From the NCBI RefSeq assembly GCF_011927725.1, contig NZ_JAATJC010000001.1, positions 2,301,001 through 2,365,000 of the forward strand: a stretch of DNA of 64,000 bases. Reading direction: 5' to 3'. The number at the start of each line of letters is the position of its first letter. The first letter of the stretch is position 1. Below are positions 46,011-50,135 of the stretch, in pieces. Both the position numbers and the translations under genes were made by a program. The notes under the pieces were generated by a model. The model saw only the letters and a program-made list of their open reading frames with translations, was not told the origin of the DNA and searched no databases. Source of the stretch: Sphingomonas kaistensis. Lineage in GTDB: Bacteria; Pseudomonadota; Alphaproteobacteria; Sphingomonadales; Sphingomonadaceae.

Positions 46011-46751
46011 TCAGGCGTTGCTGCCGCCGTCGCTTCCGCCGGTCGGGCCGCTGCCGGTTGGCTTGCGGGTCGATCCGCGCCGGGTCGCACCGGTGCTGCG
46101 GGTCGATGTCGCGCGCGAACGGGTCGCGGTGCCGCTGCGGCTGGGGGCGGCGCGCTTGGGCGCGGTGGCCGCGCTCTTCGCCGCGCCTGCTGCGCCCTCG
46201 GCCTTCTTTCGCGTGCTGGTCGATCCGCTGCTGCGCGCGGTGGCGCCGCTGGCTTTGGCCTTGGTGCTCGACGCGCGCTGGCTGGCGCTGCGCTTGGCGG
46301 TGCTGGCCGTCGATTTCGCGCCCGACCCGCGGCTGCCGCTCGACGAGGAGGACGACGACGAGCTGCTGCCGCCGAGGACCTTCTGGGCGGCATCGGCAAC
46401 CGCTTCAGCGATCAGCGAGCCGAGCTTGCCGACGCTGCTTGCCATCGACGTGGCGGCGCTGGTCGCGCTGTCGGCGGCATCGAGCCCGGCGTCGCGGATC
46501 TTGCGGCGGACCGACGGGCTGGCGCTGATCGCGGCGGCCGCTGCGGCGAGGCCGGCGGCGAGCATTTCCTTGCTCATCGCCGCCTTGGCGAGCTTGTCGA
46601 GCGTGTCGTTGAGGTTGGTCGAGCCATCCTCATCGCCATCGCTGGCCGAACTGCCTGCGCCGGCCTTGTCGTTGCCGAGCTTGTCCTGCTGGCTGGTGAA
46701 GCTGCTGGAGCCGCCCTGATTGTTCGATTTCGAGGTCTTGGACCTGGCCAC
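46011..46751 (-). CDS. Histone-H1-like low-complexity protein
   Basis: 246 aa. An N-terminal polar stretch is followed by a helical segment (about 45-128: LNDTLDKLAKAAMSKEMLAAGL, then SVRRKIRDAGLDAADSATSA). A run of ten serines leads to a basic, Ser/Thr/Ala/Arg/Lys-rich tail (about 140-246) reminiscent of eukaryotic histone H1 or chlamydial Hc1. That tail would bind nucleic acid; a nucleoid role is inference. GTG start at 46751 with GGGGAG 8 bases upstream. The opposite strand is also open here, but it lacks a ribosome site and looks like a GC shadow. It has its own terminator. Confidence 0.78.
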   Translation of the reverse strand: MARSKTSKSNNQGGSSSFTSQQDKLGNDKAGAGSSASDGDEDGSTNLNDTLDKLAKAAMSKEMLAAGLAAAAAAISASPSVRRKIRDAGLDAADSATSAATSMASSVGKLGSLIAEAVADAAQKVLGGSSSSSSSSSSGSRGSGAKSTASTAKRSASQRASSTKAKASGATARSSGSTSTRKKAEGAAGAAKSAATAPKRAAPSRSGTATRSRATSTRSTGATRRGSTRKPTGSGPTGGSDGGSNA

Positions 46752-46840
46752 GAGATGATCTCCCCGTTGGATGCGTTACCGGCAAGACGATGCAGCGCCG
46801 GAACGGTTCCCTCGGCGGCTGCTAAGCCCCGGATGTGTTA

Positions 46841-46874
46841 AAGGGACCGTCGCTCCGAAAAGCGACGATCCCTT
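46841..46874 (-). terminator. Hairpin downstream of the 18-codon ORF
   Basis: AAGGGACCGTCGCT (46841-46854) pairs with AGCGACGATCCCTT (46861-46874) with a single mismatch and a 6-base loop. On the minus strand it lies 55 bases after the stop of the 18-codon ORF, and the short T-run TTTAACA follows, so it probably ends that small transcript. Confidence 0.65.
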
Positions 46875-46929
46875 CGACATGGTCAGCGGCCGGAGAGCTC
46901 CAGCCCGGGAGACCTTGAGTGCCGGCTGG

Positions 46930-46986
46930 TTAGGCCCGCGTCTCCCGAACGAACTTCACCGAGCCTCTTGCTGAACCATGAGACAT
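46930..46986 (-). CDS. 18-codon ORF with perfect extended Shine-Dalgarno
   Basis: The ORF encodes MSHGSARGSVKFVRETRA. It is preceded by GAAAGGAGGTGATCCG directly before the ATG; 15 of those bases are complementary to the 3' end of 16S rRNA, and the spacing from GGAGG to ATG is 7, which is optimal. A hairpin lies downstream at 46841-46874. No known family is recognised, though GSVKFV faintly recalls the cold-shock start. It is either a real micropeptide, a leader ORF or a dual-function small RNA. The flanking 46752-46840 and 46987-47066 hold nothing else I can support. Confidence 0.62.
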   Translation of the reverse strand: MSHGSARGSVKFVRETRA

Positions 46987-47066
46987 CGGATCACCTCCTT
47001 TCGCTGTGTTGTTGGCACGACGGAGAATGCGTGATTCCGGCGCTCGTTCAAGCCTTGAAATGATCG

Positions 47067-47501
47067 TCAGCTTCGGCAATCCTCGACCGCTCGTGCCGGC
47101 TCGGCCGCCGACCGCAGGATCAGCGGCATCGCCCCCCTCGCATCCACCCATAACCGCCCGCGACTGAAGGCGATTGCGTCCAGCAGCGGGTCGGTCGCGA
47201 GCACCATGTTGCCTGGTCCGAGCTGGCGTTCGCTGCTGGTCGTGGCGACGCGAATCGGGGCGGCCGGAACCACGCCGGTGCGTGAAAAGCTCACCCGCCG
47301 AGTCGACCGGGTGCAGCGGATGACGAGCTGGATCCCGCGCGAATCGGAAAACAGCGCCTCGCTGGAATCGGGCGCGTTGCGCCAGGTCCAGGAGCCGGCG
47401 GTGATCGGGCGGGTGCGCCAGTCGGCGGGAGCGGGCTGGCTCGCGGATTGCGGAACGGGGGTTGCGGCCGCCTGCAGCGCGGCAAGGATCGGGATCAGCA
47501 T
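47067..47501 (-). CDS. Hypothetical secreted protein
   Basis: 144 aa. A hydrophobic N-terminus (MLIPILAALQAAATPVPQSA) looks like a signal peptide, followed by a small beta-rich domain with two Cys (IRCTRS and EDCRS) that could form a disulfide. No family is recognised. It starts 10 bases after the phaR stop on the same strand and is likely co-transcribed with it. Homologues appear typical of sphingomonads by style only; function is unknown. Confidence 0.7.
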   Translation of the reverse strand: MLIPILAALQAAATPVPQSASQPAPADWRTRPITAGSWTWRNAPDSSEALFSDSRGIQLVIRCTRSTRRVSFSRTGVVPAAPIRVATTSSERQLGPGNMVLATDPLLDAIAFSRGRLWVDARGAMPLILRSAAEPARAVEDCRS

Positions 47502-47511
47502 GGGATCTGGC

Positions 47512-48054
47512 TCAGCGTACCAGCTTGTCGACCTTGGTGCGAAGCGCGTCGAGTTCGGCCTTGAGTGCGGCCACCTCGTCCTTGTCCTCGTCCGCTGCCG
47601 GAGCGGTCGACGCGGCGCGCGGGGCGGAGGCCCCGGTCAGGACCTTGGCGCTCTGCTCGAACAGCGCCATCTGCCGCTTGGCCATGTCCGCGAACAGGTT
47701 GCTTCCGAACGCATCCTTGAACGCCGCCTGGTTCTTGGAAAAGCTCTGCATCGCGGCGTCGAGATAGCCCGGCACCATGGTCTGCATCGAGTTGCCGTAG
47801 AGCGCGATCACCTGCCGGAGGAAGCCTGCAGGAAGCATGGTGGCGCCGCCCCGCGCTTCTTCCTCGACGATGATCTGGGTCAGCGCCTGATGGGTGATGT
47901 CCTCGCCCGACTTGGCATCGACCACCACGAAGTCGCGCCCCTCGCGGATCATTTGCGCCAGGCGGTCGAGCGTGACGTAGGTCGAGCTTTCCGTGTCGTA
48001 GAGCCGCCGGTTGGCGTATTTCTTGATCGTGATCTTGTGGGGAGGGGCATTCAT
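47512..48054 (-). CDS. phaR: Polyhydroxyalkanoate synthesis regulator PhaR
   Basis: 180 aa. The N-terminal PHB/PHA accumulation DNA-binding domain ITIKKYANRRLYDTESSTYVTLDRLAQMIREGRDFVVVDAKSGEDIT (about 8-54) is diagnostic. The rest is a helical region (FLRQVIALYGNSMQTMVPGYLDAAMQSF) and a C-terminal coiled coil. It represses phasin and PHA genes and is sequestered by PHA granules. The ATG at 48054 shares bases with the divergent ATG at 48053, so the two genes have no separate promoter gap. Confidence 0.93.
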   Translation of the reverse strand: MNAPPHKITIKKYANRRLYDTESSTYVTLDRLAQMIREGRDFVVVDAKSGEDITHQALTQIIVEEEARGGATMLPAGFLRQVIALYGNSMQTMVPGYLDAAMQSFSKNQAAFKDAFGSNLFADMAKRQMALFEQSAKVLTGASAPRAASTAPAADEDKDEVAALKAELDALRTKVDKLVR

Positions 48055-49102
48055 GGGCAGTCCTCTACGCGACGTGGCCCATGACCTAGCACCGCCGTCT
48101 ATTGCACCGCAACATTCGCGCGGTCCGCGTCCCCTGCCGCTGTTCGTCGAACTCCTCCGGCAAGTCACGGCGCGTGATCCCGAACTGGGGCAGAAGGCGC
48201 TGGAGGGACTGCGCCGCTACCAGACGGCGCCCGCTGTTCCGTGTCGCCAGGAACGGCCGGTGGTGCACCGCTCGAACGGCACGAGCCTGCGCGATTGCGG
48301 CGGAAGCGGACCGGCGCTGGTGCTGGTGCCCTCGCTGATCAACCCGCCCACCATCCTCGACCTAGATCCCGCCTGCTCCCTCGCCGATGCGCTTGCGGTG
48401 CGGCATCGCGTGTTCCTGCTCGACTGGGGACCGGCGGCGGAGCGCCAGGACCTCAGCCTCGACGGACATGTCGCGGAGCGGCTGGTGCCGCTGCTCCACG
48501 CGGTGGGACCGGCGAGCTTGATCGGTTACTGCCTCGGCGGCACTCTGGCGCTGGCCGCCGCGTCGACCTGCGCCACGGTCCAGGCAGTCGTGACCCTCGC
48601 CTCCCCCTACCGCTTCGACGCCTACGAGGACGCGGCACGGGCGCAGCTTCTCCGCTTGTGGAAAGCAAGCAGGGCGGCGGCCGAACAGCTCGGCTTTCTG
48701 CCGATGGAGGTGCTGCAGGCGGCCTTTTGGCAGATCGACCCCGCCCGGCTGGTGGCCAAGTTCGCCCGTTTCGCCGACTCCGACCCCGCATCTCCCGAGG
48801 CGCTCCGGTTCGTCGCCATGGAGGAATGGGCTAATAGCGGCGAGCCACTGCCTCTCCCCGCCGCCCGCCAGATGGTCGAGCAACTGTTCGGCGCCGATGT
48901 TCCGCTGGCCCCCCTTCCCTCCTGCCCGATGCTCCACGTCACCGCGGCGGGCGACCGGATCGTCCCCGCCGCCACCGCTGCGGCCGGCGAGCAGCTGTCC
49001 TCGCCTTCGGGCCATGTCGGCATGATCGTCGGCCGCGATGCGCAGCGAACGCTGCACGGACCGCTGCTGTCATGGCTTGAAGGCGCCGCATCGGCCCGCT
49101 AG
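48053..49102 (+). CDS. PHA-synthase-like alpha/beta hydrolase
   Basis: 349 aa. [33 protein letters not shown] and [16 protein letters not shown] (the lipase-like GxCxG box with Cys nucleophile) resemble class I/III PHA synthases, and HVGMIVG near the end supplies the His. It is much shorter than the class I enzyme, so it may be a class III-like synthase or a related hydrolase. Divergent from phaR, with overlapping start codons; later GTG starts (such as 48075) are possible. The setting supports a role in polyhydroxyalkanoate metabolism, shared with the depolymerase-like gene at 6168. Confidence 0.78.
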
Positions 49103-49191: not shown

Positions 49192-49417
49192 TGATTTTAA
49201 ACGATTTTCCGATGTCTCATTTTCGGGCGTGTCCGCGTTACCGTCAGTGCTACGTCGATTTTGCCGGGTCGGACCGGGCCACGCTGTCAGCTTCCCACGC
49301 TGGCGAAAAGCCCGGAAAACCGCCACTAATTCCGTAAAAAGACGCCTAAAGTGGCCTGTCCGCGTGAATAGGCTCGCGCGGGACCGTAAAAATCCGGCAA
49401 CCCTCTACCGCCTTAAG
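49192..49417. other. Intergenic region between tRNA-Arg and hicAB
   Basis: 226 bases with no convincing ORF, more A/T-rich than the core genes. This would be the expected place for an attachment-site boundary, but I see no integrase gene here and no second copy of the tRNA 3' end in the window. Confidence 0.5.
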
Positions 49418-49434
49418 TGTGTATGCCATACGCA
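49418..49434. promoter_or_regulatory. hicAB operator, distal copy
   Basis: TGTGTATGCCATACGCA, an inverted repeat TGTGTAT-N3-ATACGCA with one imperfect position. It matches the proximal copy at 49461 and is centred 43 bp upstream of it (about four helical turns). It is a probable binding site for the HicB ribbon-helix-helix domain. Confidence 0.65.
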
Positions 49435-49460
49435 TCGCCTGTTGACCGGGCAGCCTCACG

Positions 49461-49477
49461 TGTGTATAGGATACACA
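49461..49477. promoter_or_regulatory. hicAB operator, proximal copy overlapping the hicA ribosome site
   Basis: TGTGTATAGGATACACA, a perfect 7-bp inverted repeat with spacer AGG. Its last base is the A of the hicA ATG and its centre contains AGGA, the hicA Shine-Dalgarno. The RNA would fold into a hairpin with that site in the loop. A looser, reversed relative lies at 49701-49725 before hicB. Confidence 0.7.
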
Positions 49478-49665
49478 TGAAGAGCAGAGACGTCATCAAG
49501 CTGATTGAAGCCGCCGACTGGGTTCAGGTTCGCGTTCGCGGAAGCCATCACCAGTTCAAGCATCCGACGAACCCCGGCGTGGTCACTGTGCCCCATCCGG
49601 AACGTGATCTCGCCATCGGTACCCTGCTTTCGATCGAGCGGGTCAGCGGGGTGAAGTTGCGCTGA
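49477..49665 (+). CDS. hicA: HicA-type mRNA interferase toxin
   Basis: 62 aa double-stranded-RNA-binding-like fold. MKSRDVIKLIEAADWVQVRVRGSHHQFKHPTNPGVVTVPHP carries the conserved Gly-Ser-His-His-Gln-Phe, whose His is the catalytic residue of HicA ribonucleases. It cleaves mRNA when free of HicB. The ATG at 49477 overlaps the operator, and AGGA lies 5 bases before it. Gene order is hicA-hicB, the common one. Confidence 0.92.
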   Translation: MKSRDVIKLIEAADWVQVRVRGSHHQFKHPTNPGVVTVPHPERDLAIGTLLSIERVSGVKLR

Positions 49666-49745
49666 GATGGCGAATCTCGCTGCCGTAACTTGACGTTAAG
49701 ATGCGAATACGTATCTATACACACACCCTACCACGGAGAGTCCCC

Positions 49746-50135
49746 ATGGCCACGGCCATCTATACTGGCATTGTTGAGCGTGCTGGCGAAGGCTACAGCG
49801 TCTTCTTTCCTGACGTTCCCGGCTGCGTGTCTGCCGGCGGCAGCCAAGCCGAAGCGTTCGCCAACGGCGAAGCTGCGCTCGAAGCGCACCTCGAGCTCTT
49901 GGTCGAGGACGGCAATGATCTTCCGCGCCCCTCGGCGGAGGTCGAAGTCGATCCAGAGGTCCAGGAAGTCTGCCGCTTCCTTGCCCGCGTCGAACTCCCC
50001 GGACGCGCGGTCCGCCTTAACATCACCATGCCGGAGGGCTTGGTGTCGCGCATCGATCGTGTCACGAGCAATCGCTCTGGCTTCCTCGCCGAAGCTGCGC
50101 GCGACAGGCTGGCGAAAGAGCTGGCTGACGCTTGA
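49746..50135 (+). CDS. hicB: HicB-type antitoxin
   Basis: 129 aa. The N-terminal HicB domain (ATAIYTGIVERAGEGYSVFFPDVPGCVSAGGSQAEAFANGEAALEAHL) neutralises HicA, and the C-terminal ribbon-helix-helix segment (RLNITMPEGLVSRIDRVTSNRSGFLAEAARDRLA) binds DNA for autoregulation. The ATG at 49746 follows GGAGA. The 80-base gap from hicA is longer than usual and includes an operator-like repeat, so hicB may have its own promoter. Confidence 0.93.
   Translation: MATAIYTGIVERAGEGYSVFFPDVPGCVSAGGSQAEAFANGEAALEAHLELLVEDGNDLPRPSAEVEVDPEVQEVCRFLARVELPGRAVRLNITMPEGLVSRIDRVTSNRSGFLAEAARDRLAKELADA

Follow-up and report, generated by a model that had tools for sequence, protein, structure and literature searches.

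The closest described relative of the element analysed here is the RNA family CC2171 (RF01867), which Rfam files as a Caulobacter sRNA and for which Landt 2008 is said to be the source. In the open literature we found only two papers that concern this RNA. CC2171 stands in the table of families with improved structure in the available text of the Rfam 15 paper (PMC11701678), and the family appears as MH_s33 in an sRNA list of Mesorhizobium huakuii, a study whose Northern-tested sRNAs, by its available text, were drawn from the novel ones (PMC5596092). Titles and abstracts yielded none on the leader described below, and the accessible portions of PMC12559287, PMC10117765, PMC5988900 and PMC5107571 hold nothing bearing on a CC2171-like RNA. 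The accessible part of Schrader 2014 reports that the majority of Caulobacter ncRNAs go untranslated and that only two of those predicted earlier are translated, these being named in its supplement (PMC4117421). As to long Shine-Dalgarno (SD) sequences, the portions available report that an extended SD is read by bS21-less ribosomes in Flavobacterium johnsoniae (PMC9976891) and that SDs of six bases work more efficiently in E. coli than longer ones do (PMC2176067).

In the window, by which we mean the whole 64,000-nucleotide stretch of DNA that was analysed, the element lies on the minus strand. Its leader GAAAGGAGGTGATCC (46988-47002) is complementary to the 16S rRNA 3′ tail; the 15-base anti-Shine-Dalgarno complement that the initial annotation had placed at 47002-46988 is exact in the sequence. 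The leader ends one base (G, 46987) before the ATG (46986-46984), the spacing from GGAGG (46998-46994) to ATG is 7, and the ORF of 18 codons MSHGSARGSVKFVRETRA (46930-46986), with its stop TAA at 46932-46930, was also found where it had been described. A terminator-like hairpin follows (46841-46874, arms 46874-46861 and 46854-46841); the 14-bp length given for it holds, and the one mismatch attributed to it is a U-G wobble, so that the RNA has pairs at all 14 positions. Behind the hairpin the T run is short (...CCCTTTAAC). Promoter-like boxes are predicted upstream (47024-47051), with TTGAAC at 47051-47046, a 16-nt spacer and CATTCT at 47029-47024, and boxes of the form CTTG-N15..20-CAT occur in 29 of 30 same-genus loci, themselves related, whereas shuffled stretches have them in 1.2% of cases. 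The fold of the region 46835-47030 beats dinucleotide shuffles (z -4.65, with none of 200 shuffles as good). From this layout the small mRNA-like RNA at the locus would be about 165-180 nt in size. The 14-mer AAAGGAGGTGATCC has a single occurrence in the 2.85 Mb of the own genome, where up to 2 mismatches give 22 places against 14 for the reversed control.

The RNA had been described as having no known family, and this does not hold: it is a divergent sister of CC2171. The sole match of the Rfam scan of the window at the gathering threshold is a tRNA; with an E-value threshold, RF01867 matches at 46844-47010 (minus strand) over the whole model (positions 1-159 of 159, 41.7 bits, E 7.9e-8), and the long-range pairing of RF01867, between a segment after the start and one before the terminator, is found in the window element as well. 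Since 41.7 bits lies below the gathering score of 75, the element is by Rfam's rule not a member of RF01867, and we class it with the sister subtypes, under the name type A. The own genome holds a second copy (locus L031) about 70 kb off, outside the window, which scores 51.7 bits with RF01867, reads AAAGGAGGTGGTCAGATGTCTCATTGTC... with the ORF MSHCPKSVSPASSLEVVA, and has GACAATG ahead of its terminator; we call this form type B. The second-copy element of another same-genus genome (L034) reaches 77.2 bits, above the cut-off. In the own family type B is seldom found (6 of 99, counting the own genome).

The leader, the ORF, the 3′ block and the hairpin are found together as a unit in other genomes, and the absence from other sphingomonads that the initial annotation had named as grounds for giving up its reading is not seen. 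A blastn search with 232 bases in 100 genomes found a match in 51 of 61 same-genus genomes, the own one included, and in none of 39 others. The pattern AGGAGGTGNNCNNATGTCTCAT, with up to one mismatch, is present in 275 of 396 genomes of the order and the reversed control pattern in none, so the leader with its start is not there by chance; by a manual split these matches fall into 274 of about 313 own-family genomes and 1 of about 83 elsewhere, the latter (L056) being without AGGAGG. In the class, the RF01867 model at E up to 0.001 matched 85 of 385 genomes (64 of 277 genera, 13 above the cut-off) in a search whose tool filters lose weak matches, with Caulobacter the sole match among 14 control genomes, and a leader-plus-start pattern matched 70 of the 385. 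An apparent absence from one family (f181) proved to be a pattern artefact, as at least 7 of its 13 genomes carry a TCG second-codon variant. Spread beyond the class was rejected, because AAAGGAGGTGRTCNNNTGTCY occurs in 38 of 299 phylum genomes, which by a manual split are 38 of 86 in the class and 0 of 213 others. Exact matches in a named collection came to at least 119 stretches, mostly of sphingomonads and erythrobacters and also of Azospirillum, Devosia and Candidatus Phycosocius. A record named as a planctomycete MAG (L122) was dropped as an exception, since all 3145 bases of locus L218, which comes from a class genome, stand in it unchanged. Phage origin was set aside, with no exact pattern match in viral_contigs and no blastn match in phages, as was plasmid origin, for which one plasmid record was found, an 882,608-base Azospirillum replicon.

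From these searches 261 distinct elements were assembled, and they represent one design that recurs across Alphaproteobacteria. Most loci were fetched by patterns including the start, the collecting pattern being AAGGAGGTG[AG][TC]C followed by TG at a fixed place; in the loci then examined there were no leader matches without that TG. The covariance model fetched 70 loci, of which 65 gave elements. Of the other five, L218 and L230 are copies that were counted under another locus, the leader of L273 lies too near the contig end, L269 has a shorter leader and L270 shows none. The start codons are ATG in 207, GTG in 50, TTG in 4 and CTG in 0 of the 261 elements (30 ATG, 31 GTG and 4 TTG in the model-fetched loci), the stops are TAA in 123, TGA in 91 and TAG in 47, and a scan finds a terminator-like hairpin in 258.

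As no match to a 16S gene was found in the 2.85 Mb searched of the own genome, we checked the tail ...CTGGATCACCTCCTTTCT in a genome of the same genus, the sole one with a match among 41 searched, and, as antisense, in locus L344. The predicted leader:tail duplex reaches -29.9 kcal/mol, against -15.0 for the best of 299 long-ORF ATGs in the window. Exceptionally strong SD pairing is a trait of the rpsU-type sensors of F. johnsoniae, for which the available text names values below -13 by that paper's own method (PMC9976891), and by our own duplex calculation the trait is present here. With G-U pairs allowed, 260 of the 261 elements pair contiguously with the tail over 14-18 bases and one over 12. 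Also, the variable places of the leader mostly stay paired: all 30 changes at place 13, which the collecting pattern restricts to A or G, and all 4 at place 3 are A to G, and 13 of 21 at place 16 are C to U.

The start codon and the reading frame behind this leader are selected. In 254 of the 261 elements the reading frame meets its first stop at 14-35 codons, which happens in 100 and 118 for frames 1 and 2; with each class represented by one element, the counts are 68 of 71 for the true frame and 21 and 15 for the other two, and shuffled bodies give 33%. The codon-level conservation check proposed in the initial annotation was run, and it showed that the frame is kept and the type-A amino acids are not. 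For codons 7-18 of type A (62 nearest-neighbour pairs) pN/pS is 1.76, against 1.12 and 0.46 in the wrong frames, and the changes at codon positions 1, 2 and 3 number 66, 102 and 43, being commonest at position 2. As a wrong frame gives 0.46, below the ratio of the true frame in this main group, it is the nucleotides and not the codons that appear constrained. Codons 2-5 are TCT CAT GGT TCA in all 30 same-genus loci fetched by blastn, and among 152 type-A elements GGT is the sole glycine codon and TCA stands at codon 5 in 146; here TCT CAT was part of the search patterns and Gly part of the type-A definition. In five window ORFs TCT and TCA each account for 5 of 106 codons for serine, and among 163 for glycine GGT is used in 14, which again points to a constraint on nucleotides. 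Peptide function as the main constraint was rejected for type A by the ratio of 1.76. The other subtypes have too few pairs, and because most groups there hold 1-3 pairs each, the finding of a non-conserved peptide rests on type A.

The subtypes also share a long-range helix. A segment after the second codon pairs with a segment just before the terminator, in type A CATGGTTCAGC with GCTGACCATG. In the window element the 5′ strand (46970-46980, codons 3-6) and the 3′ strand (46878-46887), both on the minus strand, pair in the minimum-energy fold. The 3′ strand is exact in 142 of 152 type-A elements, and in 151 with one extra base allowed. Elsewhere the partners are CATTGTC/GACAATG (type B), CATGAAT/ATTCATG (L235), CACCAAA/TTTGGTG (L307) and others. 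In a swap test over 71 classes the own partner gives a mean of -12.5 kcal/mol against -7.6 for swapped ones, and in 20000 permutations the own mean was never reached, though this count is not a strict probability as the classes are related; in 26 of the 71 the own partner lies outside the best tenth. On unconstrained folding the mean helix probability is 0.77 in type B, where the helix is dominant, and 0.30 in type A and 0.32 in the rest, where it is not.

The explanation that we consider best, and to which we give somewhat less than an even chance, is that the RNA is selected for contact with the ribosome, capturing or gauging 30S subunits as they initiate; the short ORF would then belong to this device, with no selection on its peptide. 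Comparison of the sequences establishes that the design exists and is conserved, that the frame is selected, that the helix covaries and that the type-A peptide is not conserved; from these we infer transcription, translation, trapping of 30S subunits and effects on other genes. The element would be a stand-alone small mRNA-like RNA, one subtype of an alphaproteobacterial family that includes Rfam CC2171. Its leader would pair with nearly the whole single-stranded 16S 3′ tail, far beyond what an ordinary SD needs, and would place the start codon at the right distance. Because the helix joins codons 3-8 with the stretch preceding the terminator, it would have to be opened before a leader-bound 30S subunit could proceed, and the short ORF may be kept to let a loaded ribosome start, run and leave, or be held. 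The effect of the RNA may be sensing, titration or holding of 30S subunits; that the leader may titrate free 30S subunits was also raised in the initial annotation. Counting for ribosome contact are the pairing with the 16S tail, the selected start and frame, the helix, the unconserved type-A peptide and the lack of a class-wide neighbour, with the extended SD of F. johnsoniae and the finding on SD length in E. coli as precedents. Against it count the statement of Schrader 2014 on untranslated Caulobacter ncRNAs (PMC4117421); the collection of the elements partly by leader patterns; the 10 of 61 same-genus genomes with no blastn match, which make the element dispensable; the type-A helix, which is not dominant, together with the 26 of 71 classes outside the best tenth; the window element, in which masking of the leader is unsupported; and a small group of 19-codon ORFs in which pN/pS is 0.36 (5 pairs).

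A wider version of ribosome contact takes in the type-B-like elements. Twelve of these (L205-L227 and L239, picked by peptide pattern) have inside the ORF a partial mimic of the 16S tail, ACC TGG ATC nTC GCC TCY, with GCC in 10 of 12 and TCT or TCC in 8 of 12, and this mimic could mask the leader. Masking of the leader inside the RNA gives a weak signal over 157 elements, with a mean z of -0.51 (standard error 0.09), and in the window element it is unsupported (z +1.82); internal SD masking was thus rejected as a trait of all subtypes. The wider version would make the RNA a class-wide gauge or trap in which the leader holds the 30S subunit, the helix gates its passage and a contentless ORF of 14-35 codons clears it, while the mimic-bearing type-B-like members would act as a switch that responds to how many free, intact 16S tails are available. 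We regard this as doubtful.

Among the rival explanations, an ordinary and very strongly translated small-protein mRNA, whose product is the peptide and whose long leader does no more than make it abundant, would account for the selected start, frame and stop, and also for the ratio of 0.36 in the one small group of 19-codon ORFs. Moreover, 7 of the 261 elements have ORFs of 55-59 codons, those inspected beginning by eye like signal peptides, and one of this kind is annotated in Azospirillum thermophilum as a hypothetical protein (WP_168220487.1). However, the type-A amino acids after codon 6 are unconserved, the peptides differ between subtypes and codons 2-5 are fixed at the nucleotide level, and we find this explanation unlikely. 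As a separate observation, the same leader and start stand before ORFs of 55-59 codons at L348 (1519-1695) and at L106, L126, L131, L159, L161, L237 and L279, Azospirillum being among them.

A usual trans-acting base-pairing sRNA, with the ORF secondary or protective, would agree with the filing of the relative as an sRNA in Rfam, and by eye a possible loop ahead of the 3′ strand of the helix contains ACTTCC in many type-A elements outside the genus. Yet the frame and the start are kept over the class, and we think this reading improbable.

The neighbourhood bears on whether the RNA acts in cis. The statement that it lies between two unrelated genes stands only in part: a gene of 144 aa (47067-47501, minus strand), whose protein has no Pfam match, is the conserved upstream neighbour of the type-A element. 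In Sphingomonadaceae, 128 of the 140 type-A elements whose upstream sequence covers at least 700 nt have this gene ahead of them in the same orientation (133 of all 152), at a distance of 67-840 nt. For the class no shared neighbour was found, as clustering of the neighbours of type B and other elements gave no family common to more than 7 elements. In one clade of 6 loci the element is followed by an RF-1-domain gene, and this hint at ribosome rescue was dropped, the gene not being a shared neighbour elsewhere; at L250, L261, L262, L324, L325 and L327 the element has a gene for a Vut_1-family transporter on one side and one with an RF-1 domain on the other, each identified from a single example. 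Downstream of the RNA in the window, 46011-46751 (minus) encodes a Ser/Ala/Thr-rich low-complexity protein without Pfam match, found at 35 loci, nearly all of the own genus, of which L036 is a repeat of the own genome. Further off, 47512-48168 (minus) encodes a PHB/PHA accumulation regulator (PF07879, PF05233) and adjoins an opposite-strand alpha/beta hydrolase, and 49417-49665 and 49701-50135 (plus) are adjacent HicA-like toxin and HicB-like antitoxin genes. Cis-regulation of a neighbour, whether as a leader peptide or an attenuator for the gene that follows or as the 3′ end of the mRNA of the 144-aa gene, has the linkage to that gene in its favour and is nonetheless very improbable given the want of a class-wide neighbour on either side, the promoter-like boxes and terminator-like hairpin of the RNA itself and the varying distance from the upstream gene.

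A family filed as a Caulobacter sRNA thus has relatives throughout the class with a selected frame, a conserved pairing with the 16S end and a conserved closing helix. Should the RNA indeed gauge or hold 30S subunits, we would have here a free-standing RNA that reads how the translation machinery is doing; in either case, the annotation of RF01867 and of small ORFs in Alphaproteobacteria needs revising. On comparing the element with the known systems, the extended SD motifs of Staphylococcus aureus resemble it in long SD pairing near the start codon and in small ORFs, but as the available text presents them they are a general feature of initiation sites in that species (PMC13009471), whereas here one conserved RNA gene is concerned. 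The rpsU leader of Flavobacteriales likewise has an exceptionally strong pairing with the 16S tail, which is read there by a distinct ribosome population; in the portion available, that leader precedes and autoregulates a ribosomal-protein gene (PMC9976891), whereas here the leader belongs to a stand-alone RNA and is followed by an 18-codon ORF and no such gene. RF01867 itself shares with the window element the leader, UGUCUCAU after the start, the places of the helix and the terminator in a full-length alignment (1-159), and it is nearer to the second copy of the own genome (51.7 bits) and to that of the congener (77.2) than to the window element, which differs from it in having ATG where the model consensus is GUG, in the sequence of the helix and in its score of 41.7 bits, below 75. 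Finally, RF01867 is an sRNA in Rfam, whereas the frame evidence presented here speaks for a small mRNA.
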